In this document: positions 6,304 through 26,124 of the stretch, piece after piece
How positions within the stretch are numbered: the first letter of the stretch is position 1
How the letters are laid out: each line of letters opens with the position of its first letter
NCBI GenBank assembly: GCA_019637315.1
Contig: JAHBVU010000006.1
Span: 124,001-188,000 of the forward strand
DNA length: 64,000 nucleotides
Source of the DNA: Gemmatimonadales bacterium
GTDB taxonomy: Bacteria > Gemmatimonadota > Gemmatimonadetes > Gemmatimonadales > GWC2-71-9
Direction of reading: 5' to 3'
Position numbers and translations under genes: made by a program
Notes under the pieces: generated by a model
Database searches by the model: none
What the model saw: only the letters and a program-made list of their open reading frames with translations
Told to the model about the DNA's origin: nothing

Positions 6304-7236
6304 ATGAAGCGCAGTCTCGTAGCCCTAGTCGCAGTGACCGGTCTTGTCGCGTGCAACGCGGGTCCGAGAGGGCAGCTGGTGCAGTCGATTCCGTCGGATT
6401 CGACCGAGTTCTTCCGGACTCAGGTGCAACAGATGACCACCCTGTCGGCAACCAAGGACAGCCTGTTCCGCGACCTCGCGGAAACGACCAAGCTGCTCGC
6501 CGACATCAACACCGAACTTGCCACCGTCCGGACCGGCAATCGGGCTGTCGAGCCCGTCGTGTCGCCCGAAAGCCAGCTGGCTGCTTCGCCCAGCGACCGG
6601 GCCCTGGTGCTCAAGAAGGTCAAGGATCTTACCGCCCGCGTCAAGAACAGCGAAAGCCGGCTGGCCACCAGCCAGCGTCGGATCCGGGCCCTGACCGCCG
6701 AGTCCGACAGCTTCCGCGTCGTGCTGGCCGACTTCCAGACCACCATTGACGGCCTCAACTCGATGGTCGACAATCAGAAGAGCACCATCGCCAACCTCGA
6801 GTCCGAGCTCAACACCAGCCGGGCCCAGGTCGTCGCGCTCACCGAGGAAAAGACGGTCCTGCAGGACACCGTCTCCGCCATGACCACGCGCGAGAACACC
6901 GTCTACTACGTCATCGGCACCAAGCAGGAACTCAAGGACCGCGGCATCATCAAAGAGGTCGGCGGCACCCGCTTCCTCCTGGTCACCCGCACCGGCGAGA
7001 CCCTGAAGCCGGCGGACAACCTCGACCCGTCGATGTTCACGGCCATCGACCGGCGCCAGACGTCCGAGATTCCGCTGCCGCGCCCGGACAAGCAGTACCG
7101 GGTGGTGACGAATCAGAACATTGCCTACGCCAACGTCAGTCAGGACAATAACGGCCGAGTGCGCGGGACACTGCAGATCTCGAACCCCGAGCAGTTCTGG
7201 ACCAACTCGAAATTCCTGATCCTGGTCGAGAACTAA
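6304..7236 (+). CDS. Lipoprotein with coiled coil, function unknown
   Basis: A 310-residue protein. The start at 6304 is preceded by a good Shine-Dalgarno (AGGAGGGG about 8 bp upstream) and yields a lipoprotein signal with lipobox LVAC (Cys17). Residues about 35-205 are heptad-rich and predicted by eye to be coiled coil (repeated Ser/Thr/Leu spacing, NLESELNTSRAQ). The C-terminal 100 residues form a compact domain (VYYVIGTKQELKDRGIIKEVGG ... FLILVEN). Proteins of this shape, a lipid anchor plus coiled coil plus small beta domain, are common in Bacteroidetes and Gemmatimonadota and are usually left unnamed. Its own terminator follows at once, so it is monocistronic and, given the strong ribosome site, perhaps well expressed. 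Confidence 0.85.
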   Translation: MKRSLVALVAVTGLVACNAGPRGQLVQSIPSDSTEFFRTQVQQMTTLSATKDSLFRDLAETTKLLADINTELATVRTGNRAVEPVVSPESQLAASPSDRALVLKKVKDLTARVKNSESRLATSQRRIRALTAESDSFRVVLADFQTTIDGLNSMVDNQKSTIANLESELNTSRAQVVALTEEKTVLQDTVSAMTTRENTVYYVIGTKQELKDRGIIKEVGGTRFLLVTRTGETLKPADNLDPSMFTAIDRRQTSEIPLPRPDKQYRVVTNQNIAYANVSQDNNGRVRGTLQISNPEQFWTNSKFLILVEN

Positions 7237-7262
7237 CGCGGGTACCAAGCCGCTGAACGTTC

Positions 7263-7292
7263 GAGAGGGGCAGCCAACCGGTTGCCCCTCTC
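7263..7292 (+). terminator. Rho-independent terminator after the lipoprotein gene
   Basis: Perfect 10-bp stem GAGAGGGGCA/TGCCCCTCTC with a 10-nt loop, followed by GTTGTTCC. It lies 26 bp after the stop codon. Confidence 0.85.
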
Positions 7293-7388
7293 GTTGTTCC
7301 CACCCGCCTCGTGACCAGGCTGCTTGCTGCCGCCCCCTGCTGAACCTTAAGTTGGCAGCACCAGCGCGTTCCCCGGTCACCAGGTTCC

Positions 7389-8411
7389 ATGCCCCCTTCT
7401 CCACTTCCTCTCGTCGTCCTGACACCGATCCGAAACGAGGGGTGGATTCTCGACCGGTTTCTTGCCGTAACCACCCGACTGGCCGACCAGGTCATCCTCG
7501 CCGACCAGGGATCGACCGACGAGAGTCGCACTATTGCCGCACGGTATCCGAACGTCACGGTCATTGCCAACCCGGATACCGGGTTCAGCGAAGCCACCCG
7601 GCAGGGGCTCCTGATCGACGAGGCGCGCCGCCTCGTTCCAGGTCCCAAGGTCCTGCTGGCGCTCGATGCGGACGAGATCATCGCCGCCGATGCGCCCACC
7701 TCGCTCGGCTGGCAGACCATGCGGCACGCCGCGCCGGGGACCGTCCTCTGCTTCGAGCTGATCGATCTGCTGCTGACGCCTGATCGCTGCATGCGCCACG
7801 ATCGCTGGCGGCCGTTCGGCTACGTCGACGACGGCGCGCCGCACCAGGGACGACTGATCCACAGCGGTCGAATCCCCCTGCCGGCAGGTGCGCCGCGGCT
7901 CAAACTCAACAGCATCAAGCTGCTCCATTACGCCCCGCTTCGCACCACCGCCATGGCGTCGAAGCTGCGCTGGTACAGCGTAATGGAGAACGTCCTGGGC
8001 AGCTGTCCCCCGGTGTTCAAGCGCCGGCTGCGCTACCTCAACCATGTCGACTTTACCTGGGAAGGTCGGATCGAGGCCTCCCAGGCAGGCTGGTTCGACC
8101 GCTGGGAAGTCGACGGTATCGACATGCAGACGGTCGACGACCCGGAGTATCACTGGTACGATGTCGAGGTGTTGCGCGCCTTTCAGACGCATGGGTCCCG
8201 AAAATTCTGGCTCGACGACATCTGGCGCTTCGACTGGGAACCGGTTCGCCAGTGGGCCATTGCCCAGGGCTTCGCCGGAATCCCCTCAGGGCCAGTACGC
8301 CCCGCACCGGACTGGCTGGTCTGGGTCATGCGGGTCCTGAGCTGGGCCCATCGCCATCAGGTCTGGATTCGCCAGCGGCTTTCCGGGCGCCGGAGCCGCC
8401 GTCTGGCTTGA
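7389..8411 (+). CDS. Family 2 glycosyltransferase
   Basis: A 340-residue cytoplasmic GT-A enzyme. The N-terminus shows the GT2 strand-loop pattern (VVLTPIRNEGWIL), the base-binding segment DQGSTDES at about 39-46, and the metal-binding DAD at 93-95 (LALDADEI). After residue 160 it has an aromatic, basic C-terminal part unlike bifunctional synthases (DDGAPHQGRLIH, WYDVEVLRAF), with no membrane segments beyond a weak hydrophobic stretch near the end. It probably adds a sugar to a surface glycan or glycolipid, but there is no polysaccharide cluster around it. The start at 7389 has only a weak ribosome site. Confidence 0.8.
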   Translation: MPPSPLPLVVLTPIRNEGWILDRFLAVTTRLADQVILADQGSTDESRTIAARYPNVTVIANPDTGFSEATRQGLLIDEARRLVPGPKVLLALDADEIIAADAPTSLGWQTMRHAAPGTVLCFELIDLLLTPDRCMRHDRWRPFGYVDDGAPHQGRLIHSGRIPLPAGAPRLKLNSIKLLHYAPLRTTAMASKLRWYSVMENVLGSCPPVFKRRLRYLNHVDFTWEGRIEASQAGWFDRWEVDGIDMQTVDDPEYHWYDVEVLRAFQTHGSRKFWLDDIWRFDWEPVRQWAIAQGFAGIPSGPVRPAPDWLVWVMRVLSWAHRHQVWIRQRLSGRRSRRLA

Positions 8412-13640: not shown

Positions 13641-16250
13641 TCAACCGGCGCCGAGTTGCAGTGCCAGCCGCTCGAGCACCTTGGAAAGGTCGGGTCGCTG
13701 ATCGAGGACCGGACGCACCGGGTCGTAGCCCAGCGTCTCCATTCGTGCCACCGCAGTCTTGATCGTGAAGGTCCGACGCCGCGCCTCCAGGTCATCGTTG
13801 ACTTCGTCCCACTCGAGCGGCATCGAAACCGTCGCACCGGGAAGAGGGCGGACGCTGTAAGGTGCCACGATCAGTTGTCCCCGGCGGTTCTGGAGATAGT
13901 CGAGATAGACTTTGTCACCCCGTTTGGTAACCTGGCGAACGATCGTCGAGGTATCACGATGCTCGCGCGCCACCAGCCGGGACAAGAGCTCACCCAGGGT
14001 GCGCGACTGCTCATAGGTGAGCTGACGACCCAGCGGAACCAGGATGTGGAGGCCGGTCTTACCCGTCGTCTTGACGTAACTCGGCAGCCCGGCGTCGGTG
14101 CAGATTCGATAGAGCGTTCGCGCAATCGCCACAACCTCGAGAAACGGCGCTTCCTTCGGATCGAGATCGATCACACACCAGTCCGGCTGTTCCAGCGAGG
14201 CAACCCGGCTGGCCCAGATATGCAGCGGAATGGCTGCGGAATTGGCGAGGTAGAGCAGCGTCTCCTCGTCATTGGCCACGAAGTAGCGCACATCACGCTG
14301 GGTATCTTCGCTCCAGATCGGCACGGTCTGAATCCAGGCCGGCGCAAACTCCGGTGCGTCTTTCTGATAGAACGACTTTCCCGCAATCCCGTCAGGATAC
14401 CGTGTCAGCACGACGGGCCGATCCTTGAGGTAGGGCAAGAGCCACGGTGCAATGGCCCGGTAGTAGTCGACCAGGTCGCCTTTGGTGTATCCCTCCTCCG
14501 GCCAGAAGATTTTTTTCAGATTCGAGAAGGCGACCGTCTTGGCAACCGGCGCCTCCTTGATCTCGTCCGAGGCGGCCTGCACCGGATCGGTCGCTTCCTC
14601 CGGGGGTGCACTCGACCAACCCTGCCGATCGCACTGCTCGGGCGTCTTGTCGTTGCGCATCCGCAGAAACGCGGGGTGCCGGAGCAAGCCATCCGGCGTC
14701 CATTCCCGGTACCGCACCTCTGCCACCAACCGTGGCTCCACCCACGTCGTTGTTTTCGTGCCAGGTATCTCATCGGCGGCGAGCGGAACCGCGCCCGGTA
14801 GAGCAACCGGACCGAGGCAGGCGGGGGTCGCGCGAATCAGCGGCACCAGCTCGGCGTGGTATTCTGCCAGCTGCGCTTCGGAGAACCCCGTCCCCGCCCG
14901 ACCGGCATAGACGAGCTGTCCGTCGACCCGATCCGCCAGCTGCAGAGCACCGAACCCACCGCGCGATCCATTGGGGGCGGTAAAGCCGACAACCACGAAG
15001 TCGCCGGTCTGCTCGGCCTTGATCTTCCGCCAGGCCGAGGTGCGCCCTGCCCGGTAGGGCGCGTCAGCCTTCTTGGCAATGATGCCCTCGACCCCCAACG
15101 TCGGCACCTGGGCAAGCACCGCATCGCCCTCGCGCTCGATGTGATCGAGGTACCGGATCGGACCGAGCGGCGGCAGGATCATCCGAAGCAGGCGCTTCCG
15201 CTCCAGCAGCGGCAGCGGGCGCAGGTCGAAGTCCTCGAAACCGAGCAGGTCGAAGGCGTAATAGGTTGCCGGCAGCTCGACCTCTGCCCGACGTACGTCG
15301 AGCGGCCGGCTGAGCAACCCACGGCGCTGCAGCAGCGCAAAGCTGGGACGCCCTTTGCCATCGAGCACCACGACCTCACCGTCGAGAACGACGTGGCTCA
15401 GGGGCAGGGCTCGAACGGCGCGAGCCACTTCGGGAAATGTCGCGGTGTAGTCACCACCGCTCCTGGTGCGCAGAATGGACTCGCCTCCCCGATGGCAGGC
15501 AATCAGCCGATACCCATCCAGCTTGAGTTCGAAGAGCCAGCCGTCTTTGGTGAAGGCGTCGTCCGCCGGTTCGGCCAGCATCACGCCGACCGTATCATCC
15601 ACCACACCGCGCGGCGCATCGAGGCGAAGCAGTTCGTTGCGCAGCACGTCGGCCGGGGTCCGTCCAGCCATCCAGTCTTCGACCGTGAGTCCTGACAGGA
15701 CCGATTCCTGAGGAAAGTCCTCCCCCGGGTCCTTGACCCAGGCGTCCCGCTCCTTGATGAGCAGCCAGTCACGCTCGCTCTTCTTGATTTTGACGAGCGT
15801 CCAGCGCCCGCGCAGCTTGTAGCCCCGGAACTCGAACAGCAGCTTGCCCTTTTCCATTCCGGCCCGCGGGTCTTCGAGCGGCACCCATTCGCCGCGATCC
15901 CACACGATCACGGCGCCGGCGCCGTAGTTCCCCTCGGGAATCATGCCCTCGAAATCACCATACTCGAGCGGATGGTCTTCCACCCGCACCGCGAGGCGCT
16001 TGTCGGAGAGGCTGTACGAGGGGCCGCGAGGAACCGCCCACGATTTGAGTACCCCGTCCATCTCGAAGCGAAAATCGAAATGGGTCTGCCGCGCGGCGTG
16101 CTTGTGCACCACGAACAGGCCGCCGGCCTTGGCGCGGGCCGGAACCGCGGCGCCGCCAAACGGTTCCGGCGTGCGATCGGCCGAGCGTTTGGCCCGGTAT
16201 GCGGCCAGCTGCTCAGCGGGCGAAGGTGAGGACTGGTCGTCGTCGGCCAT
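13641..16250 (-). CDS. ligD: Multidomain NHEJ DNA ligase LigD (PE-LIG-POL)
   Basis: The 869-residue protein contains all three LigD modules. The phosphoesterase lies at about 40-195: His51, His57, Asp59, Arg61 and His93 match the spacing of the Pseudomonas enzyme's metal and phosphate ligands. The ATP-dependent ligase lies at about 220-550: motif I KLDGYR with Lys243 as adenylation site, LDGEVVVLD, VEGIIAKK. The archaeo-eukaryotic primase-like polymerase lies at about 575-869: the metal pair Asp695/Asp697 in VIDLDP and TTGKTGLHI. The order PE-LIG-POL is that of Pseudomonas rather than mycobacteria. It joins double-strand breaks with Ku, whose gene lies 4.7 kb away in the opposite direction beyond a SusC/SusD pair. 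It is followed by xth. Confidence 0.96.
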   Translation of the reverse strand: MADDDQSSPSPAEQLAAYRAKRSADRTPEPFGGAAVPARAKAGGLFVVHKHAARQTHFDFRFEMDGVLKSWAVPRGPSYSLSDKRLAVRVEDHPLEYGDFEGMIPEGNYGAGAVIVWDRGEWVPLEDPRAGMEKGKLLFEFRGYKLRGRWTLVKIKKSERDWLLIKERDAWVKDPGEDFPQESVLSGLTVEDWMAGRTPADVLRNELLRLDAPRGVVDDTVGVMLAEPADDAFTKDGWLFELKLDGYRLIACHRGGESILRTRSGGDYTATFPEVARAVRALPLSHVVLDGEVVVLDGKGRPSFALLQRRGLLSRPLDVRRAEVELPATYYAFDLLGFEDFDLRPLPLLERKRLLRMILPPLGPIRYLDHIEREGDAVLAQVPTLGVEGIIAKKADAPYRAGRTSAWRKIKAEQTGDFVVVGFTAPNGSRGGFGALQLADRVDGQLVYAGRAGTGFSEAQLAEYHAELVPLIRATPACLGPVALPGAVPLAADEIPGTKTTTWVEPRLVAEVRYREWTPDGLLRHPAFLRMRNDKTPEQCDRQGWSSAPPEEATDPVQAASDEIKEAPVAKTVAFSNLKKIFWPEEGYTKGDLVDYYRAIAPWLLPYLKDRPVVLTRYPDGIAGKSFYQKDAPEFAPAWIQTVPIWSEDTQRDVRYFVANDEETLLYLANSAAIPLHIWASRVASLEQPDWCVIDLDPKEAPFLEVVAIARTLYRICTDAGLPSYVKTTGKTGLHILVPLGRQLTYEQSRTLGELLSRLVAREHRDTSTIVRQVTKRGDKVYLDYLQNRRGQLIVAPYSVRPLPGATVSMPLEWDEVNDDLEARRRTFTIKTAVARMETLGYDPVRPVLDQRPDLSKVLERLALQLGAG

Positions 16251-16435
16251 AGGCGAAATATAGGGCCCGGCCGGGCGCCGCGGCCGCGGCCGAGCACTCG
16301 GCTCGGCACGTGACTAACCGACCAGTGCAGAAGGGTCGGCAACACCCCCCTCTTGCGCTTTTCAGTTCTGTGTGCAGTGTTGTGTACAGTTCCGAATCCC
16401 AATCCAGCAGTTCGCCCAACCCTCGCGGAGGACCC

Positions 16436-19400
16436 ATGGTCCATCCATTCGTGTGGGCAGTCCGGCGTACCTCGTCCCTCTTCCTGGGCGCGGCCTTTGG
16501 CCTCGCCACGGTGGGGGCTTTTGGTGCGCCGGTCCATGCCCAAGCTGGCACTGTCTCAGGTACTGTCGTTGACTCGAAGAGCGGACGACCACTGGCAGAC
16601 GCCCGGGTCGCTGTCGACGGAGGGGGGCAGGTCGCGCGGACTGGCGTCCGCGGCGACTTCCGGCTGACCGGGTTGAGCGGTACGACCGCTCGGCTCCGGA
16701 TCACCCGCATCGGCTACCAGGCTACCAACGCCGACGCTCCGGTTGGGGGGGCACCGATCGAGGTCCAACTCACCGAGATGGTGGTGAAGCTGGATGAGGT
16801 CATCGTTACCGGGACCGCTGGCGAAGCGCAGAAGCGGTCCCTGGGCAACGTGGTGGGCAGCATCGACGTGGCCAATACCCTGGCCTTAGCCGGCCCGCCC
16901 GCCAAGCTCCAGGACATGATGTCGGTCAACGTGCCCGGCGTGAGAGTCATCCGCGCCAGCGGGGCGGTCGGAAGCGGCGGGGTAACCCGGATTCGAGGCT
17001 CAGGCAGCCTGAGTCTTTCGAACGAGCCGCTGGTCTATGTCGACGGCGTCCGCGTCAGCAACCAGGCGGCCGCCAGAAGCCTCGCCTTCAACGGCCAGGA
17101 GGCGCCATCTCGAATCAATGACATCAACCCCGAAGAGATCGAGTCGATCGAGGTCCTGAAAGGGCCCTCGGCAGCAACGATCTATGGCACCGAGGCCTCG
17201 AACGGGGTGATCCAGATCATTACCAAGCGAGGCAAAGCGGGGCGGCCCACCTTCGAAGTCCGGGCCGATGCCGGTGCCGCCTGGCTGGCGAATCCCGAGG
17301 GCCGTTACCCGTCCAACTACTACTACTCCCGGGCCGGGACGGTGGAAGAATTCAACGTCCTGAACTGGCGTCGGGAGAACGGCTATCCTGCCATCTTCCG
17401 AACCGGCAGTCCGGTTGGCTTCGGCGCCAGCTTGAGCGGCGGCACCGACCAGCTGCGCTACTTCTTCTCGAGTGACTTCAACCGGGACGAAGGCCCGGTC
17501 GACTACAACTGGCAGAACAAGTACTCGGCCCGAGCCAACCTGACCTACTCCGCGCCGAACGACAAGTTCAAAGTCGACCTGAGCCTGGGCGCTATCCGTT
17601 CCCGGCTCCGCGGTGCCTCAGGCTTTCAGCCGATCACGACCTCGATCATCTGGGCCTGCAACTTCCCGGGCTGCGAACCCGACCCGGCCAGCCCGAACAA
17701 TACCGGCTGGAACGACGGGGGCGGCGGCTTCCAGTTCTACCGGCCCGAAGACTACGACGAAGTGCAGGGACTCGACAACGTGGACCGGACCACGTTCTCG
17801 CTCCAGCTCAACCACCGGCCGTTCAGCTGGCTCCGGCACCGGCTGACCCTGGGCCCCGACTTCGTCAACAACAAGTCGTCGCTGCTGGTAGAGCAGCACC
17901 CCACTGCACGGCGCCCGTTCTTCACGGCGAGCAACGGAGAGCGAAGTGTGCTCCAGAACCGCTCCACCTTCCTGACCCTGGATTACGGCGCCTCGGCCGA
18001 CGTAACCCTCGGCAAGCTCGTGGCAACGACCTCGGCAGGTGTGCAGTACTACTACAAGCAGTTCGATATCGTGTCGGGTTCGGGCACCAACTTCGCGATC
18101 CCCGGCCCGTCCGACATCAGCGGCGGCTCGACGATCACGGCCGAGGAGCAGTTCCTGGAGAACAAGACGTTCGGAGCCTATGTACAGGAGCAGTTGGCCT
18201 TCAACAACCGGTTCTTCTTCACGGCCGCTGTCCGGGGCGACGACAACAGCGCCTTCGGCGAGAACTTCAATGCCGTGTACTATCCGAAGTTCAGCGTCTC
18301 GTGGGTGTTGTCGGAAGAGCCGTTCCTTGCCAACAGCGGGCTATTCTCTCAACTCAAAGTCCGCGGAGCGTGGGGCAAGGCGGGGCAGCAGCCCGACGTC
18401 TTCTCCGCGATTCAGACCTACGCTCCGGCGCTGGGCACGGGCGGACAGGGCGGTGTGACTCCGCAGAACTTCGGCAACCCGGACCTCAAGCCTGAAATCG
18501 GGCAGGAAACCGAGTTCGGATTCGACGCCGGATTCTTCAACCAGCGTCTGGGCATCGAGTTCACCTACTACGACAAGAAGGTCAAGGACGCGATTCTCTC
18601 GCTGCCGCTCCGGCCGTCGCGCGGATTCCCCGGCAGCCAGTTCCTCAACATCGGCGAGACCCGCAACAAGGGCATCGAGCTGGCCGTGGACGGGACCGTG
18701 CTCAACTCTCGAAATGTTGGGCTCGACCTCCGGGCGACCTTCGCCACCAACGACAGCAAGATCACGGATATGGGCGGCACTCCGCCCGCATTCGTGGGCA
18801 GCGGCTTCATCCAGCAGTGGAACGTGGAGGGCTTCGCCCCATCGTCGTACTTCTTCAAGCGGGTGGTGAGCTCGAATATCCAACCCCTCAACATCGGGAT
18901 CCCGCTTCCGGTGGGATTCGACCCGATGTGCGAGGGCGGAACCGAGCTGGGAGAGGGCGACGGATCAGTGGTTCCCTGCGCCAATGCGCCACGTCTCTTC
19001 CACGGTCGCCCAACCCCATCGTGGAACGGCAGTGTCAGCGCGAACGTCCGACTCGGTCAGCGGCTCAGGCTGCTGGGCATGGTCGACTATCTGGGCGGCA
19101 ACCATGCCCTGGTCGGCGACGTCGCCGCGATCCACGCCTTCTTCCTGAGTTCGGAAGCGGTGCTCAAAGGGACCAGTGAAATCGTCTCGGGCTACCTGGG
19201 TACACAGTTCCTGCTTGGCGACCCGAACAGCGTCGGTGTGCTGGGCATGATGAAGGGCGGGTTCGCCAAGCTGCGCATCCTATCCGCCACCTACGACCTG
19301 CCTCCCAGCGTGAACCGGTGGCTGGGCGCTTCGCGGGGCGCCATCACCGTCTCGGGTGAAAACCTGCTGACACTTTGGCGGGCCCAGAGCGAAGTCTTCG

Positions 19401-19528
19401 GCGTCAAGTTCGTCGACTCGGAGATCATGGGCAACCGGACCTTCGACAATACCGGCAACTTCGGGTACACCCAGGAATCCTGGCCGCAGCTGGCCCGGTT
19501 CCGGACCACCATTCGGTTCACTTTCTGA
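16436..19528 (+). CDS. SusC/RagA-family TonB-linked outer-membrane protein
   Basis: A 1030-residue receptor. The ATG at 16436 has GCGGAGGA just upstream and gives a signal peptide ending PVHAQA; the longer in-frame start at 16310 adds unrelated residues. Order: signal (1-38), CarboxypepD_reg-like domain (about 38-120), plug (about 130-260; GVRVIRASGAVGSGGVTRIRG, EVLKGPSAATIYGTEASNG, IITKRG), then a 22-strand type barrel ending in RFTF. The SusD-type lipoprotein gene follows after 23 bp. Together they form the lid-and-pore importer for oligosaccharides or peptides. No glycosidase or sulfatase lies next to them, so a peptide ligand is possible. Confidence 0.93.
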   Translation: MVHPFVWAVRRTSSLFLGAAFGLATVGAFGAPVHAQAGTVSGTVVDSKSGRPLADARVAVDGGGQVARTGVRGDFRLTGLSGTTARLRITRIGYQATNADAPVGGAPIEVQLTEMVVKLDEVIVTGTAGEAQKRSLGNVVGSIDVANTLALAGPPAKLQDMMSVNVPGVRVIRASGAVGSGGVTRIRGSGSLSLSNEPLVYVDGVRVSNQAAARSLAFNGQEAPSRINDINPEEIESIEVLKGPSAATIYGTEASNGVIQIITKRGKAGRPTFEVRADAGAAWLANPEGRYPSNYYYSRAGTVEEFNVLNWRRENGYPAIFRTGSPVGFGASLSGGTDQLRYFFSSDFNRDEGPVDYNWQNKYSARANLTYSAPNDKFKVDLSLGAIRSRLRGASGFQPITTSIIWACNFPGCEPDPASPNNTGWNDGGGGFQFYRPEDYDEVQGLDNVDRTTFSLQLNHRPFSWLRHRLTLGPDFVNNKSSLLVEQHPTARRPFFTASNGERSVLQNRSTFLTLDYGASADVTLGKLVATTSAGVQYYYKQFDIVSGSGTNFAIPGPSDISGGSTITAEEQFLENKTFGAYVQEQLAFNNRFFFTAAVRGDDNSAFGENFNAVYYPKFSVSWVLSEEPFLANSGLFSQLKVRGAWGKAGQQPDVFSAIQTYAPALGTGGQGGVTPQNFGNPDLKPEIGQETEFGFDAGFFNQRLGIEFTYYDKKVKDAILSLPLRPSRGFPGSQFLNIGETRNKGIELAVDGTVLNSRNVGLDLRATFATNDSKITDMGGTPPAFVGSGFIQQWNVEGFAPSSYFFKRVVSSNIQPLNIGIPLPVGFDPMCEGGTELGEGDGSVVPCANAPRLFHGRPTPSWNGSVSANVRLGQRLRLLGMVDYLGGNHALVGDVAAIHAFFLSSEAVLKGTSEIVSGYLGTQFLLGDPNSVGVLGMMKGGFAKLRILSATYDLPPSVNRWLGASRGAITVSGENLLTLWRAQSEVFGVKFVDSEIMGNRTFDNTGNFGYTQESWPQLARFRTTIRFTF

Positions 19529-19551
19529 CCCGCGATCGGGAGATGCCTGAC

Positions 19552-20832
19552 ATGCAATCGTCATCGTCATTCGAGGCTCGGTCCGGGCGCCTGGGCAAGG
19601 GTGCGGCCACCGCCATTGCCCTGGGAACCGTCCTGGCACTCGGAGCCTGCGACAACCTGCTCGAGGTCGAGTATCCCGGCCGAATTCCGAGCGGACAAAT
19701 CGATAACGCCGCCCTTGCCAACGTGCTGGCACGGAGCGTTATCAGCGATCTGGAGTGCGCCTACAGCAACCACTCGGCCGGATCGTCCTTCCATTCCGAC
19801 GAGTGGGAAACCGCCAACTCCAACGTCCCGCTCGCCAACTGGGGCGAGCGGACCATCGGGGCGGACGAGGACAACTACGTCGTATCCTCCTGTGATGACG
19901 GCGGCTTCGGAATGCAGCTGACGCTCCAGACCGCCCGGTTCCAGTCGGAGGACATCTACCGGCGGCTGGAGGCTTGGAGCGATACCGATGTCCCCAACCG
20001 CAGGTCGCTGATGGCCCAGGTCAGGGCCTTCGGTGGCTACGCTTATCAATTCATGGGAGAAACCTGGTGCCAGGTGGCGTTCGATGGCGCGGCGGCTCAG
20101 GCACCCGCAGCCGCCCTGACGCTCGCAGAACAGCGGTTCACGGAAGCAATTACCATCGCGCAGCAAGCCGGGAACACCGACATCGTCAACATGTCCCGCG
20201 TCGGCCTCGCGCGCGCCAAGCTGATGCTCAAGAAGTACGGAGAAGCCGCCACCATAGCTCAGCAAGTGCCGGCAGGATATGTCAAGGACGCCGACCGCGG
20301 CGCTGAAAACACCCGGCGGTGGAATGACATCTACCGGAACGGCAACGACCTTGGCGCGTACACGGTCGCGCTGTCGTACCGCAACACGGGAGACCCGCGA
20401 CTGCAGGTCGTTGACGCCAACCGCGGCGCCTTCAACCCGACCATCGCTCTCTGGGTGAGCAACAAGTACACCGCACTCCAGACGCCAATCCGCCTGGCAA
20501 GCTATCGCGAGGCACAGCTGATTCGGGCCGAGGCCCTGGCAGAGCAAAATCAGGTCAGCGCGGCCATGACGATCCTCAACGACCGTCGTGCCGAGGTTAG
20601 CCTTGCCCCGCTTTCTGCTTCGACCCAGGCCCAGGCCATTGCCCACGTCATGAACGAGCGGAAAATGGAACTGGCCTTCGAAGGCGGACATCGGCTGGCC
20701 GACCTGCTCCGCAGACAGTTGCCCTGGAAGGGCGCCAACGGCTCGACTCAGGTATCGAATCCGTTCACCGCCCGCCCCTACGGCCAGACCACCTGTTGGC
20801 CGCACCCCACCAAGGAGTCCAACGGGGCGTAG
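19552..20832 (+). CDS. SusD/RagB-family outer-membrane lipoprotein
   Basis: A 426-residue surface lipoprotein that caps the SusC-type pore encoded just upstream and binds its substrate. The ATG at 19552 lies about 10 bp after GGGAG; an alternative ATG at 19543 is too close to that site. The lipobox is LGAC (TVLALGAC), followed by the typical DNLLEVEYP. Tetratricopeptide-like helices fill the middle (SRVGLARAKLMLKKYGEAATIA). The SusD C-terminal signature is recognisable (YREAQLIRAEALA, NERKMELAFEGGHRLADLLR). Slightly shorter than many SusD proteins. A strong terminator follows, so susC-susD is a closed two-gene operon. Confidence 0.92.
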   Translation: MQSSSSFEARSGRLGKGAATAIALGTVLALGACDNLLEVEYPGRIPSGQIDNAALANVLARSVISDLECAYSNHSAGSSFHSDEWETANSNVPLANWGERTIGADEDNYVVSSCDDGGFGMQLTLQTARFQSEDIYRRLEAWSDTDVPNRRSLMAQVRAFGGYAYQFMGETWCQVAFDGAAAQAPAAALTLAEQRFTEAITIAQQAGNTDIVNMSRVGLARAKLMLKKYGEAATIAQQVPAGYVKDADRGAENTRRWNDIYRNGNDLGAYTVALSYRNTGDPRLQVVDANRGAFNPTIALWVSNKYTALQTPIRLASYREAQLIRAEALAEQNQVSAAMTILNDRRAEVSLAPLSASTQAQAIAHVMNERKMELAFEGGHRLADLLRRQLPWKGANGSTQVSNPFTARPYGQTTCWPHPTKESNGA

Positions 20833-20888: not shown

Positions 20889-20985
20889 CGCGTTCCCGGC
20901 TCGGGGTCCGGGCGCACGGCCCCTGCAGTTTTCAAAGCGGGGCAAACCCCAGTAGCTTCCAAGTCCAAACGTGTGTGAGGACGTT

Positions 20986-21816
20986 ATGCCAGCCCGATCC
21001 ATTGGCACTGCCACGATTTCGTTCGGCCTCGTCTCGGTTCCGATCCACATCTATTCATCCTCGGAATCCTCGGCTGGGATCTCGTTCAACCTGCTCCACA
21101 AGAAGTGCGGCACCCGGCTCAAGCAGCAGTACATCTGCCCGAAAGACGAGGAAGTCGTCCCCCGGGATCAGATGGTCAAGGGCTACGAGTTTGCCAAGGA
21201 CCAGTACGCCGTCTTTACCCCGGAAGAAATCAAGGCGCTCGACGAGAAAGCCACCAACACGATCGACATCCTCGAGTTCGTGCCGCTCGACCAGGTCGAT
21301 CGCCGCTACCTCGACAAGTCGTACTACCTGGGCCCCGACAAAGGCGGCGACCGAGCTTACCGCCTGCTCGGCAAAGCCCTGGAAGAAACCGGTCGAGCCG
21401 CCCTCGGTCAGTACGCAGCACGCGGTCGCCAGCACCTGGTCCTGCTCCGCCCGCTCGATGGAGTGCTCCTGATGGAGCAGCTCCACTACGCCGAAGAGCT
21501 CAAACCAGCGACCGAGGTTCCCCTTGGCGAGGGCGAGGTCAAGGCAGCGGAGCTCAAATTGGCCAAGCAGCTGATCGAGCAGGCAGCTACGGACGAGTTC
21601 CATCCTGACCGTTACAAGGACGAAGTGCGAAACCGGGTCCTAGAGGCGATCCAGAAGAAGGTCGAGGGCCACGAGATCACCGCCGAACCCGCGCAGGACG
21701 CGGGCGGCAAGATCATCGACCTGATGGAGGCGCTCAAAGCCAGCCTGGCCCGCGGAGCCGACGACGAGTCGGACGAAGGCGACAAGAAGCGCGGCAAGAA
21801 GCGCCAGGCTTCGTGA
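20986..21816 (+). CDS. ku: Non-homologous end-joining protein Ku
   Basis: A 276-residue bacterial Ku homodimer subunit, which threads onto DNA double-strand ends and recruits LigD. Seen: the family N-terminus RSIGTATISFGLVSVPI, LHKKCGTRLKQQYICP, VPRDQMVKGYEF, the central DQVDRRYLDKSYYLGP, and GRQHLVLLRP. The C-terminus is lysine-rich (DKKRGKKRQ), as in bacterial Ku tails that contact DNA. The ATG at 20986 follows GTGAGGA and begins exactly at the conserved MPARSIG; the in-frame ATG 15 bp upstream is less likely. Its stop overlaps the GTG start of the DUF72 gene by four bases (GTGA), so the two are co-translated. Confidence 0.96.
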   Translation: MPARSIGTATISFGLVSVPIHIYSSSESSAGISFNLLHKKCGTRLKQQYICPKDEEVVPRDQMVKGYEFAKDQYAVFTPEEIKALDEKATNTIDILEFVPLDQVDRRYLDKSYYLGPDKGGDRAYRLLGKALEETGRAALGQYAARGRQHLVLLRPLDGVLLMEQLHYAEELKPATEVPLGEGEVKAAELKLAKQLIEQAATDEFHPDRYKDEVRNRVLEAIQKKVEGHEITAEPAQDAGGKIIDLMEALKASLARGADDESDEGDKKRGKKRQAS

Positions 21817-22526
21817 CAGTCTGGCGCGTCGGCACCAGCGGCTTTGCCTTCAAGGAGTGGAAGGGCCCGTTCTACCCGGTCAAGCTCAAAGATGCCGAGA
21901 TGCTATCGGCCTACGCGAGCCGACTGCCGATGGTGGAGCTCAACAACACCTTCTACCGGATGCCACAGGAAAAGAGCCTGCTGGCCTGGGCGGCGCAGGT
22001 ACCGGAGGAGTTTCGGTTTGCAGTCAAGGCGAACCAGCGGATTACCCACTACGCCCAGTTGCGAGACACCGGCGAGACGGTCGCCTTTCTGGCCCGGACC
22101 GTGGCCGTGCTGGGTCCTCGACTTGGCCCCACACTGTTCCAGCTTCCGCCGCATCTCAAGCGCGACCTCGACCGTCTCGAGCGGTTCCTGACCGAGCTGC
22201 CGAAACACTGGGCCGTTACCGTCGAGTTCCGGCACCAGAGCTGGTTCGACGACGACCGCGCCAGCGAGCTGCTGCGATATCACGGTGTGGCGCTCTGCCT
22301 GTCGGACCAGCCCGACTGGCAAACCCCGCAAATCGCCACCACCACGTGGGGGTATGCGCGACTCCACCGCTTCGATTACACCGAGGACGAACTGTCGGAT
22401 TGGAGCCGCCGTCTGAGCGGCTTCGGCTGGTCGGAAGCTTACGTGGTCTTCAAGCACGACCACACACCCGGCTCAGGGCCACTCGTTGCCGAGGCGATGA
22501 TTGCGCGCCTGGCCAAGCTGGCCTAG
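21813..22526 (+). CDS. DUF72 family protein (YecE-like)
   Basis: A 237-residue soluble protein of the DUF72/YecE family, which has a TIM-barrel fold and no agreed function. Seen: the N-terminal VGTSGFAFKEWKGPFYP, VELNNTFYRMP, FRFAVKANQRITH, LFQLPP, and VEFRHQSWF. It begins with GTG overlapping the ku stop by four bases, so it belongs to the ku operon. Ku-DUF72 adjacency hints at a link with end repair, but that is inference. Its stop overlaps the convergent helicase stop by four bases. Confidence 0.9.
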   Translation: MTVWRVGTSGFAFKEWKGPFYPVKLKDAEMLSAYASRLPMVELNNTFYRMPQEKSLLAWAAQVPEEFRFAVKANQRITHYAQLRDTGETVAFLARTVAVLGPRLGPTLFQLPPHLKRDLDRLERFLTELPKHWAVTVEFRHQSWFDDDRASELLRYHGVALCLSDQPDWQTPQIATTTWGYARLHRFDYTEDELSDWSRRLSGFGWSEAYVVFKHDHTPGSGPLVAEAMIARLAKLA

Positions 22527-25432
22527 TTCAACAGGAGGCGGTCGGGCACGAGACCCATCTCATCGAAGAACCGATGCCCCCCGGTCACCTTCCCCTCGCG
22601 CGCTTCGACCCGCGTCATCACGAGCCGATCCTTGGCCCGCGTCATTCCGACATACAGCACCCGCCGCGCCTCCTCGATCTCTGCCAGACTCGGCGGGCGG
22701 CCTGAAGGGCCTCCCGGCATCTCAGTGTCTTCGACGCCCACGATGTAGACTCGCGAAAATTCGAGCCCTTTGGTCGAGTGCAAGGTGAGCAGGTTGACTC
22801 GCTCCGGATCGGCCTGGGTCCCATCACTGCGTGACAACGCGACAAGCGCGAGAAACTCCGTGATCTGCTGGTCCAGCCCGATCGCTTCCAATCCCTCCAG
22901 CAGCCGCTTGACCCGGGACATCGCCGCCGGATAGCGCTGTTCCGAGCTCCGCTCGGCGCGAATCCGTAACATCCGCTGCTGCCCGCCCAGGCGTTCGATG
23001 ACCTCATCCAGGGTCGGCGCCTGGACGGCACGGGCCCGCTCTCGCTCGCTGCGGTAGAAATCGAGACAGGTGGTATACCGGCCCAGCGCATAGACCGCGG
23101 TCTGCTGCTTGAGCATCGCAGCCTCTGGGGTCAGCGCTTCGGGGTCGACCAGCGCCAGTACCAGGCCGAGATAGTCGAGCGCATTCGACAGCGTGACCCG
23201 CCGCTGCCGCGAGACCCGCTCCTCTTCGAGTTTCCGGAAGACCTTGGCCAGAGTCCGTACGTCCCACAGGGCCTTGTGCGGATCGCCCGGATCGATGCCG
23301 AACCGTTCGGCCAGGTGCTCGAGCCTGGCACTCCCGACCCGGAGCGCGCGGGCCAGCGGCAGCGTGTCGTACGTCGCGAACTCGGCGCCTGACATCCGCC
23401 TGAGAATCGGGAAGTCGAAGCTGTACCCGTTGTGTGCCACCAGGACATCCTCGCCTAAAAAATCGCGAAGCGCCGGCCAGATCTCTTCGAAGTATGGAGC
23501 CGCCGCCAGATCCTGCTCGGAGTACCCGTGAGTCCGCGCGGCCCCCGGTGCCACCGGGACCCTCGGCTTGACCAGGCGGTGGAACTCTTCAACACCCACC
23601 CAGTTTCGAACCCGCAGCGCCGCCACCTCGACGATCTCCGCGGTCGCCGCATCCTTGTCTGTTGTCTCGAGGTCGACCACAGTGAAGTCCCGGAACGAAT
23701 CGCTCGACCGGACTTGAACGAGCTGCAACGCTTTGAAAACGGTGAGCGCAAAGCCGAGCTCCCCGCCAAGCGACGGATCGAGTACGAAGTCGCCGGGTGC
23801 AGGGGTGCCGATCAGCGACAGGTAATCGACCCAGCGAAACCCTGCTGCGCCCAGCAAGCCTGCCAAACCGATCTCGAGCCCCTGCATTGCGGGCAGCAGC
23901 ACCCGCCGCCGCTCGGCGCGGACCGCGAGGAGTGCCTCCGCCAGACGGCGCACGGCACCCGACGCGACAGGATCGCTGAGCTGATCAGCGTTCTCCTCGA
24001 GCAGCGTTTGATACTCCCCAACCCGCTGCGACAGCACCTCATCGACCAGCCCAGTCAGCTCCTCATGACGGCGCGGCAAGCTCGCGAGATTGCTCATGGT
24101 CGCCAGGGCCCGCCGGATCTTGCGGCCCTCTTCGTCCGTCGGCGGCAGCTCGGTCGCCCTACGGCGCAGGTGCGTTACCAGGTCGACCGAGGCAGCATCC
24201 GCCTGCTTCCTGAGCATGTCGAGCAGCGCGCCCGGAAGGACCCGACGAATGAACAGCTCGCTCATGACCGAGTCACCCGGATAGGCCACCACGCCGAGCG
24301 CAGCAATCAGGTAGCCGACCACAGGATCGTCGGAGAGAGCCCGCCCATGCGCCATCCGGCACGGCACACCGGCCCGCATCAGCGCACCCTCGAGATAGTC
24401 GCCGATCGCGTGCTTGCGATAGAGGACGGCATACTCTCCCCACGGCAAGCCGGCCTCGGCGCGATCCCGCTTGAGATCGGCCAGCAACCAGCGCAACTCG
24501 GTCAGATCCTCGCCGAACGACCGGGCTTCGACGGGATGCGCCGTTTCACGGCTGGCAACGACCCGCTTCTCCTCGAGCAGCGGCGCGTTGCAGGCTACCA
24601 GCGCGCGCGCAAACTCGAAGATCTGCCGCGCCGTCCGCCGATTCTCATCGAGCACGACATAGCGCGTCACGCCAAAGTCGTTCATGAAGCGGAGAATGAC
24701 CTGAGGGTCGGCCCCGGTCCACGAGAAGATCGACTGTTCGTCGTCGCCTACCGCGAAGATGTTCCGATGTGCTTCGGCCAGCCGGCGAATGACGGTGTAC
24801 TGTGGTGTGTTGAGATCCTGGAACTCGTCGACCAGGAGGTAGTCCCACTGCCCCGCAACCTCTCGGCGTACCTCGGCGTGGTCGGTGAGCAACCCGGCGG
24901 TCAGCACGACGAGGTCGTCGAAGTCCACCATCCTGGACCGGTCCAACCGCTCGCGATATCTGAGGTACAACGACTGGTCTTCCGGCGAGAGTTCCTGACT
25001 CGTCATCCGATGCAGCCCAAACCGCGCCAGCACCGAACCACGCATCCGCGGCGGGATCTGGAGACGGCCAAGGACGGCCTTCTGATAATCCTCGTCGGCA
25101 ATCCCGAAGCCTCGCTCCAGACCGAGCACGCTGCCATGCTTCCGCAGAATGGCAACACAGAGCGAGTGAATCGTCGAGCGCGTCACGGCTTCGGCGGAGT
25201 CGCCCATTTCACGCGTCAGGCGGGAGGCCACCTCTTCGGCGGCCTTATTCGTGAAGGTGACCGCGCAGATCCGATCCGGGGCAATGCCGTGGTGCTGGAT
25301 CAGGTAGCGAATCCGCTCGATCAGGCAGTACGTCTTGCCAGCCCCGGGGCCCGCGAGTACGAGCTGGGGCCCGAGCCCCGCCTCGATAGCGCTCAATTGC
25401 GCAGCGGATGGCACCATCGGATCAGACGTCAC
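22523..25432 (-). CDS. UvrD-family helicase with an inserted DEDDh exonuclease domain
   Basis: A 969-residue fusion. Superfamily 1 helicase motifs are complete: I GPGAGKT (28-34), Ia TFTNKAAEE (59-67), II VDEFQDLN (201-208), III GDDEQSIFSWTGA (229-241), IV DENRRT (262-267), then, far downstream, V LHSTKGLEF (884-892) and VI VLYVGMTRAKDRL (925-937). Between IV and V sits a DnaQ-type 3'-5' exonuclease (about 583-735) with all five catalytic positions: Asp587 and Glu589 (VVDLETT), Asp673 (AHNGYSFD), His719 and Asp724 (HKALWD). One polypeptide could thus unwind and trim ends. It starts with GTG overlapping the hydrolase stop by four bases, as the last gene of an SDR-hydrolase-helicase operon, and is convergent with ku-DUF72. 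A role in break processing with Ku/LigD is inferred. Confidence 0.93.
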   Translation of the reverse strand: MTSDPMVPSAAQLSAIEAGLGPQLVLAGPGAGKTYCLIERIRYLIQHHGIAPDRICAVTFTNKAAEEVASRLTREMGDSAEAVTRSTIHSLCVAILRKHGSVLGLERGFGIADEDYQKAVLGRLQIPPRMRGSVLARFGLHRMTSQELSPEDQSLYLRYRERLDRSRMVDFDDLVVLTAGLLTDHAEVRREVAGQWDYLLVDEFQDLNTPQYTVIRRLAEAHRNIFAVGDDEQSIFSWTGADPQVILRFMNDFGVTRYVVLDENRRTARQIFEFARALVACNAPLLEEKRVVASRETAHPVEARSFGEDLTELRWLLADLKRDRAEAGLPWGEYAVLYRKHAIGDYLEGALMRAGVPCRMAHGRALSDDPVVGYLIAALGVVAYPGDSVMSELFIRRVLPGALLDMLRKQADAASVDLVTHLRRRATELPPTDEEGRKIRRALATMSNLASLPRRHEELTGLVDEVLSQRVGEYQTLLEENADQLSDPVASGAVRRLAEALLAVRAERRRVLLPAMQGLEIGLAGLLGAAGFRWVDYLSLIGTPAPGDFVLDPSLGGELGFALTVFKALQLVQVRSSDSFRDFTVVDLETTDKDAATAEIVEVAALRVRNWVGVEEFHRLVKPRVPVAPGAARTHGYSEQDLAAAPYFEEIWPALRDFLGEDVLVAHNGYSFDFPILRRMSGAEFATYDTLPLARALRVGSARLEHLAERFGIDPGDPHKALWDVRTLAKVFRKLEEERVSRQRRVTLSNALDYLGLVLALVDPEALTPEAAMLKQQTAVYALGRYTTCLDFYRSERERARAVQAPTLDEVIERLGGQQRMLRIRAERSSEQRYPAAMSRVKRLLEGLEAIGLDQQITEFLALVALSRSDGTQADPERVNLLTLHSTKGLEFSRVYIVGVEDTEMPGGPSGRPPSLAEIEEARRVLYVGMTRAKDRLVMTRVEAREGKVTGGHRFFDEMGLVPDRLLLN

Positions 25433-26124
25433 ACCGGCAATCTAGCAGATCCTCCCGCCACCGATCGCATCCAATCCGACGCAACCCGGGCCAGTTCGAC
25501 GATGATTTCCTGACCGGTTCGGCCGGTCCGCTTGAGGACGGCAAAGGCATGGTCGGCGCCGTCGATCTCGTGGAGCGTTGCCGTCTCCGGCAGCCCGGCA
25601 ACGACCCCGCGAATCAGATCGGTCTCCGCCAGTTCATCGCGGGTGCCCTGGAGGAACAGCATCGGCACCCGGACCTGACGGAGGTGCTGCGCGCGACTGG
25701 TCGCTGGCCGTTTGGCGGGATGCAGGGGAAACCCAAGGAATACCAGTCCCAAGCAACCAGCCAGCGGCATCTCGGCCTGGGCCGTGGATGTCATTCGCCC
25801 GCCAAAGGATTTGCCGCCCGCAAAGAGCGGCCGGCCGGCCGCCAGTCGCTCCGCAACCCCGGCAGCCGCGCGCACCGCCGCAGTCGCTACGGCGGGCGAA
25901 TCGGGCCGACCGGAGCGTGCCTCCATGTAGGGAAGCTGATACCGAAGCGTCGCGACACCCGCTTCGGCAAACGCCAGCGCCATCGCGGCCATGAACGAGT
26001 GGGTCATCCCCGCCCCGGCTCCGTGTGCCAGGAGGTAGACGCGATCCGCTCCCGGCGGGTCGAGCCACAGGGCGCTGACGCCTCCGTGCGGCGTCTCGAC
26101 CCGCACCGGCTCGGCAGCCGTCAT
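25429..26124 (-). CDS. Alpha/beta hydrolase, KANL3/Tex30-like
   Basis: A 231-residue cytoplasmic hydrolase. The order of motifs fits the dienelactone-hydrolase-like KANL3/Tex30 group: [14 protein letters not shown] (oxyanion region), the nucleophile elbow GGKSFGGRM with Ser in GKSFGG, LGFPLHP, a strand with [10 protein letters not shown] (acid), and the catalytic His in GADHAF. The substrate is unknown. It overlaps the SDR stop by four bases on one side and the helicase GTG on the other, so all three are one operon. Why a hydrolase shares an operon with a repair helicase is not clear. Confidence 0.85.

Follow-up and report, generated by a model that had tools for sequence, protein, structure and literature searches.

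Motors of the UvrD family translocate 3′–5′ and DEDDh enzymes digest 3′–5′, both properties being established for the families, and the 2B subdomain is thought to regulate UvrD-like helicases. Three groups of described enzymes come close to the protein reported here. The UvrD/PcrA/Rep helicases, among them mycobacterial UvrD1, have the SF1A motifs; unwinding of 3′-tailed duplexes by mycobacterial UvrD1 is Ku-dependent according to work cited in PMC3656841, and a study of Ku–UvrD1 unwinding appears among the references of PMC12658125. ExoDinG, the DinG of Bacillus subtilis and Staphylococcus aureus, joins a DEDDh 3′–5′ exonuclease to a helicase, the exonuclease being N-terminal on an SF2 XPD-like enzyme (PMC11981726); the B. 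subtilis protein removes R-loops and trims 3′ tails, an example of a DEDDh domain joined to a helicase that is able to shorten 3′ tails at forks (PMC12525004). AddAB, RecBCD and AdnAB are multi-subunit enzymes that combine a UvrD-type motor with a C-terminal PD-(D/E)XK nuclease.

We analysed a window of 64,000 nt (contig 6, positions 124001–188000, of a 3.9-Mb host genome) that encodes a UvrD-family helicase with an internal DEDDh exonuclease, hereafter exo-UvrD. It shares all SF1A motifs with UvrD, PcrA and Rep but has ∼345 extra residues in 2B, including a catalytic-looking DEDDh domain, whereas mycobacterial UvrD1 has no nuclease domain. Unlike in ExoDinG, the exonuclease is internal and the helicase belongs to SF1A, which places the protein outside that group. 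AddAB, RecBCD and AdnAB have a motor of similar fold, but the nuclease of exo-UvrD is a mid-chain DEDDh domain in a single chain; a Pfam search of the protein found no PDDEXK family, so that it does not belong with these enzymes either. exo-UvrD is thus a new architecture made from known parts, DEDDh–helicase fusions as such being known. In the open-licence literature we found neither a UvrD helicase containing an internal DEDDh domain nor a UvrD–exonuclease beside Ku, which is weak evidence of absence.

Domain architecture and predicted folds of exo-UvrD

Along the protein, Pfam matches follow the order UvrD-helicase (residues 11–253, E = 1.3e-63), RNase_T (585–732, E = 2.1e-21) and UvrD_C (836–941, E = 8.9e-30), with the RNase_T profile covered almost entirely (2–164 of 164). 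Walker A, DEFQD, GDDEQS, NRR, HSTKGLE and YVGMTR are all present and are invariant or nearly so among orthologues; SF1 motifs I–VI together with the UvrD-helicase and UvrD_C domains assign the protein to SF1A. Its scores fell below the curated equivalog cut-offs for PcrA (329/911 bits), UvrD (270/1144) and Rep (307/951), indicating a divergent member of the superfamily rather than an orthologue of any of these three. The host genome also contains a second, separate UvrD/PcrA-like gene.

In the alignment with PcrA, residues 391–806 of exo-UvrD are spanned by PcrA residues 411–482. As this PcrA segment falls inside the 2B subdomain, which we take to lie at ∼387–550, the insert sits in 2B; ∼160 of the extra residues make up the exonuclease and the remainder is helical. 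A preliminary description of this DNA had proposed a helicase with all SF1 motifs and a complete DEDDh domain inserted in 2B. Pfam and the alignments confirm the helicase, the comparison with PcrA bears out the position of the insertion, and the five catalytic positions are exactly those given there (Table 1).

Table 1. Features of the exo-UvrD locus (positions in the window)
Feature	Position	Strand	Evidence and remarks
LigD: phosphoesterase, ligase and primase-polymerase domains	13641..16250	(-)	
SusC/SusD-type pair: TonB-dependent receptor and SusD family	16310..20832	(+)	Between LigD and Ku
Bacterial Ku	20971..21816	(+)	TIGR02772, 280 bits
DUF72 (PF01904) protein	21813..22526	(+)	Convergent with exo-UvrD, 4-bp overlap; 4-bp overlap also with ku
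exo-UvrD: SF1A UvrD-family helicase with inserted DEDDh exonuclease	22523..25432	(-)	969 aa, GTG start
UvrD_C, motifs V and VI, residues 836–941	22610..22927	(-)	Pfam
2B second helical half up to motif V, residues 736–870	22823..23227	(-)	Model, low confidence
DEDDh exonuclease domain, residues 583–735; D587, E589, D673, H719, D724	23228..23686	(-)	Pfam, alignment, model
2B first half and 2A junction, residues ∼366–582, helical	23687..24337	(-)	Partial alignment to UvrD 2B; approximate boundaries; 481–582 low confidence
UvrD-helicase N-terminal motor domain, residues 11–253; Walker A, motifs Ia–III	24674..25402	(-)	Pfam; model pLDDT ∼90
Abhydrolase_11 protein	25429..26124	(-)	4-bp overlap with exo-UvrD start

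Asp587, Glu589, Asp673, His719 and Asp724 were invariant in all 30 aligned orthologues, as well as in 60 out of 60 sequences of an enlarged set covering those positions, even where identity to the window protein was down to ∼45–50%. Mean column identity was 64% for the exonuclease and 59% for the whole protein; the domain is therefore conserved as well as the rest of exo-UvrD and is not decaying. With all five catalytic residues intact in every one of the 60, an inactive exonuclease relic is ruled out on sequence.

An AlphaFold2 model of residues 385–870, based on an alignment of viral DEDDh relatives, predicted an RNase H-like DnaQ fold over residues 583–735 with a pLDDT of 90–98, as the preliminary description had led us to expect. 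The closest PDB match of the modelled exonuclease was the S. aureus DinG exonuclease (Z 22.0, 1.8 Å over 161 residues); E. coli DNA polymerase III epsilon scored Z 21, and DEDDh matches overall Z 19–22. In a model of the whole protein, for which the alignment consisted of viral UvrD relatives, the motor folded at a pLDDT of ∼90 and was best matched by UvrD, Rep and PcrA at Z 36–38 (Deinococcus radiodurans UvrD 38.4, Rep 38.1, PcrA 36), with Mycobacterium tuberculosis UvrD1 at 29.6 and the helicase–nucleases AdnB, AddA and RecB at 27.7, 26.9 and 24, respectively. Model confidence is low for 2B outside the exonuclease, and this extends to the orientation of the exonuclease itself. As modelled, exo-UvrD is a UvrD-type core with a DinG/DnaQ-type exonuclease fold.

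Distribution and gene neighbourhood

Full-length or fragmentary exo-UvrD was present in ∼51 of 200 genomes of the host phylum; these belong to the host's family, to two others of the same order and to a further family of the class. A survey of 396 relatives found it in 115, and the two surveys together comprise 116 distinct fusion genomes, all from one class. Sampled genomes from other families of the class and from the phylum's more distant family gave ordinary UvrD-type matches only. Outside the phylum, a contig scan with one query sequence returned a single unrelated UvrD and no fusion, and 99 genomes of the phylum to which that UvrD belongs contained none, an empty answer that is weak evidence. 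We found no exo-UvrD in plasmids, phages or IMG/VR, nor a fusion among 51 viral UvrD loci, which speaks against a phage or mobile-element origin. We also reject a chance or mis-assembled fusion, since 116 genomes share the architecture and almost all of them encode it as a single open frame.

The immediate neighbours of exo-UvrD in the window are genes for Abhydrolase_11, SDR, DUF72 and Ku proteins. The 4-bp convergent overlap with ku–DUF72 reported previously was found again (DUF72 ends at 22526), and LigD is indeed in the vicinity of Ku, at a distance of several kb because the SusC/SusD pair intervenes. Relatives usually have LigD directly next to Ku and divergent from it; where exo-UvrD is linked to Ku, it typically faces DUF72 and then Ku, both on the opposite strand, followed by LigD co-directional with exo-UvrD. 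This arrangement is shared by exo-UvrD proteins that are only ∼50% identical. Across 51 loci, Ku, DUF72, LigD and Abhydrolase_11 were the only recurrent neighbours with a consistent placement.

Several further features of the neighbourhood were seen. The Abhydrolase_11 gene shares the strand of exo-UvrD, being located 5′ of it in the host's family but 3′ of it in the neighbouring one, and it adjoins exo-UvrD even in some genomes in which Ku is unlinked. DUF72 travels with the linked type of Ku, and in one genome with no Ku match (G132) it stays near exo-UvrD; we found nothing in the open-licence literature that brings DUF72 together with NHEJ or LigD. The phylum contains two Ku/LigD modules (L224–L243; G012, G030, G043, G107, G143 and others), and some genomes carry two Ku genes. 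In the type linked to exo-UvrD, LigD is divergent from Ku, often together with DUF72. The second Ku type, ∼33% identical, usually has LigD downstream on the same strand and is common in non-fusion genomes.

Association with Ku and with AddAB-type enzymes

Ku was matched in 105 of the 116 fusion genomes and lay within 10 kb of exo-UvrD in 31 of these, compared with 0.86 expected from genome sizes. The number of linked genomes is a lower bound because the assemblies are fragmented; for most exo-UvrD genes, proximity to Ku could not be demonstrated, in part because contigs are short. Within the host's order (n = 115), Ku was present in 43 of 47 fusion genomes versus 29 of 68 non-fusion genomes (odds ratio 14). 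The linkage and co-occurrence tests ignore shared ancestry, and a within-genus permutation for Ku was not significant (p = 0.14). In a tree of 49 exo-UvrD proteins, Ku-linked members occurred in both major clades, with at least 10 changes of linked state. This fits best with an ancestral cluster that many lineages retained and others broke up, and the exo-UvrD–Ku linkage may descend from a single such cluster. Genomic linkage and co-occurrence with Ku together connect exo-UvrD to the NHEJ module; the expectation that a genome survey would bring the fusion and Ku together thus held, with linkage far above chance rather than a gene never near repair genes.

The association is not obligate. No Ku match was obtained for 11 of the 116 fusion genomes, and many relatives with Ku and LigD have no exo-UvrD. 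One Ku-less genome (G295) is 99% complete and has an intact exo-UvrD gene, after which the start of an Abhydrolase_11-like frame continues into the final 160 LigD codons (L244, ∼6850–7500). We read this locus as a probable deletion scar from which the DUF72–Ku segment is gone. The exonuclease residues are intact in G295 and in the other Ku-less genomes examined, and retention of exo-UvrD after loss of Ku implies that the protein is of value without Ku. A strictly Ku-dependent role is therefore unsupported, given the Ku-less fusion genomes, the survival of the gene after a Ku deletion and the Ku-bearing relatives that lack the fusion.

With PDDEXK_1 serving to flag AddAB, AdnAB and RecB, we detected an AddAB-type match in none of the 47 fusion genomes of the host's order versus 15 of the 68 non-fusion genomes (p = 3e-4, ignoring shared ancestry); within genera, the permutation test was borderline (p = 0.05). 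Four genera include both AddAB-type and fusion genomes, with no single genome having both, and the majority of the order's non-fusion genomes lack the two enzymes alike. Among 65 further fusion genomes, four (G222, G225, G349 and G393) had a strong PDDEXK match in a long frame; the match in G349 scores as AddB, and that in G222 is a UvrD–PDDEXK protein. This near-exclusive distribution supports a role at break ends, although the pattern is not strict. The only PDDEXK_1 match of the host is weak and corresponds to a Cas4g/Cas1g protein. This Cas4g/Cas1g fusion lies at ∼13450–15840 of contig 31 (G000, L265), and the host therefore probably carries a CRISPR adaptation module.

Possible roles of exo-UvrD

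Our main reading, to which we assign a probability of about 0.5, is that exo-UvrD is a one-chain helicase–exonuclease that processes the ends of double-strand breaks and was originally part of a Ku–DUF72–LigD end-joining module. We regard this as the best explanation for the intact motifs, the predicted folds, the purifying conservation, the conserved gene order around Ku, DUF72 and LigD, the LigD remnant behind exo-UvrD in G295 and the co-occurrence with Ku; Ku-dependent unwinding by mycobacterial UvrD1 is a precedent. On this explanation, the protein would have both enzymatic activities with the polarity of their families, would act at breaks and might contact Ku. The UvrD motor, possibly aided by Ku at the end, would engage the 3′ tail and translocate 3′–5′, opening the duplex or stripping off bound protein. 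The DEDDh domain, located in the mobile 2B beside the duplex junction, could then remove 3′-terminal nucleotides, flaps or damaged ends, leaving trimmed ends for LigD to fill and seal.

The preliminary description had suggested a helicase–nuclease that resects or trims ends in end joining. The link to end joining is backed by the Ku linkage, whereas strict dependence on Ku is not supported, given the 11 fusion genomes with no Ku match, the intact gene beside the G295 scar and the Ku-bearing relatives without the fusion. Likewise, trimming of 3′ ends fits the polarity expected of the two families better than classical resection does: a 3′–5′ exonuclease on a 3′–5′ translocase shortens the 3′ strand, which suits damaged, flapped or mismatched 3′ ends rather than the production of long 3′ tails. 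Resection is thus doubtful, as RecA-ready 3′ overhangs would not be expected.

The same polarity bears on a different proposal, namely that exo-UvrD serves recombination or end degradation in general, standing in for AddAB, RecBCD or AdnAB, and that it lies next to Ku because both belong to a common break-repair island rather than because it acts in end joining. The lack of AddAB-type enzymes in the fusion genomes of the order, their alternation with exo-UvrD inside four genera, the host's sole match to Cas4g/Cas1g and the existence of Ku-less fusion genomes would all be explained in this way. Yet a 3′–5′ exonuclease would have the wrong polarity for making RecA-ready 3′ tails unaided, the within-genus test is borderline, four further fusion genomes have strong PDDEXK matches, and most non-fusion genomes of the order manage with neither enzyme; we consider this proposal possible but lean against it. 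More tentatively still, and rather improbable in its full form, the one-chain UvrD motor with a DEDDh domain in its regulatory 2B arm might be a further break-end machine that replaces AddAB and feeds either Ku/LigD joining or recombination, rotation of 2B coupling unwinding to 3′-end trimming.

That the exonuclease fold is closest to that of DinG, with the B. subtilis precedent (PMC12525004), and that a separate UvrD/PcrA-like gene in the host would leave exo-UvrD free to be a specialist paralogue, could also point to a helper in replication or transcription conflicts, acting like ExoDinG or PcrA on 3′ flaps, R-loops or stalled forks. The Ku linkage would then be a historical accident, which is hard to reconcile with the retention of Ku, DUF72 and LigD beside exo-UvrD in both clades at a frequency well beyond chance, and makes this role unlikely. 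An anti-phage or anti-plasmid helicase–nuclease is very improbable: the PADLOC matches, which include GajB of Gabija and a Cas-associated DEDDh model, are those of a generic UvrD and DnaQ, no GajA (the OLD nuclease) or other defence partner adjoins the gene, and the family is conserved in one class, beside repair genes.

Schemes of bacterial end joining usually show Ku plus LigD, and the trimming or opening of ends beforehand is a gap that exo-UvrD could fill; a conserved helicase–exonuclease gene facing ku is a concrete candidate for end preparation. exo-UvrD also shows a nuclease inserted into 2B, the subdomain thought to be regulatory in UvrD-like helicases, and it provides a natural contrast between AddAB-using genomes and those with exo-UvrD.
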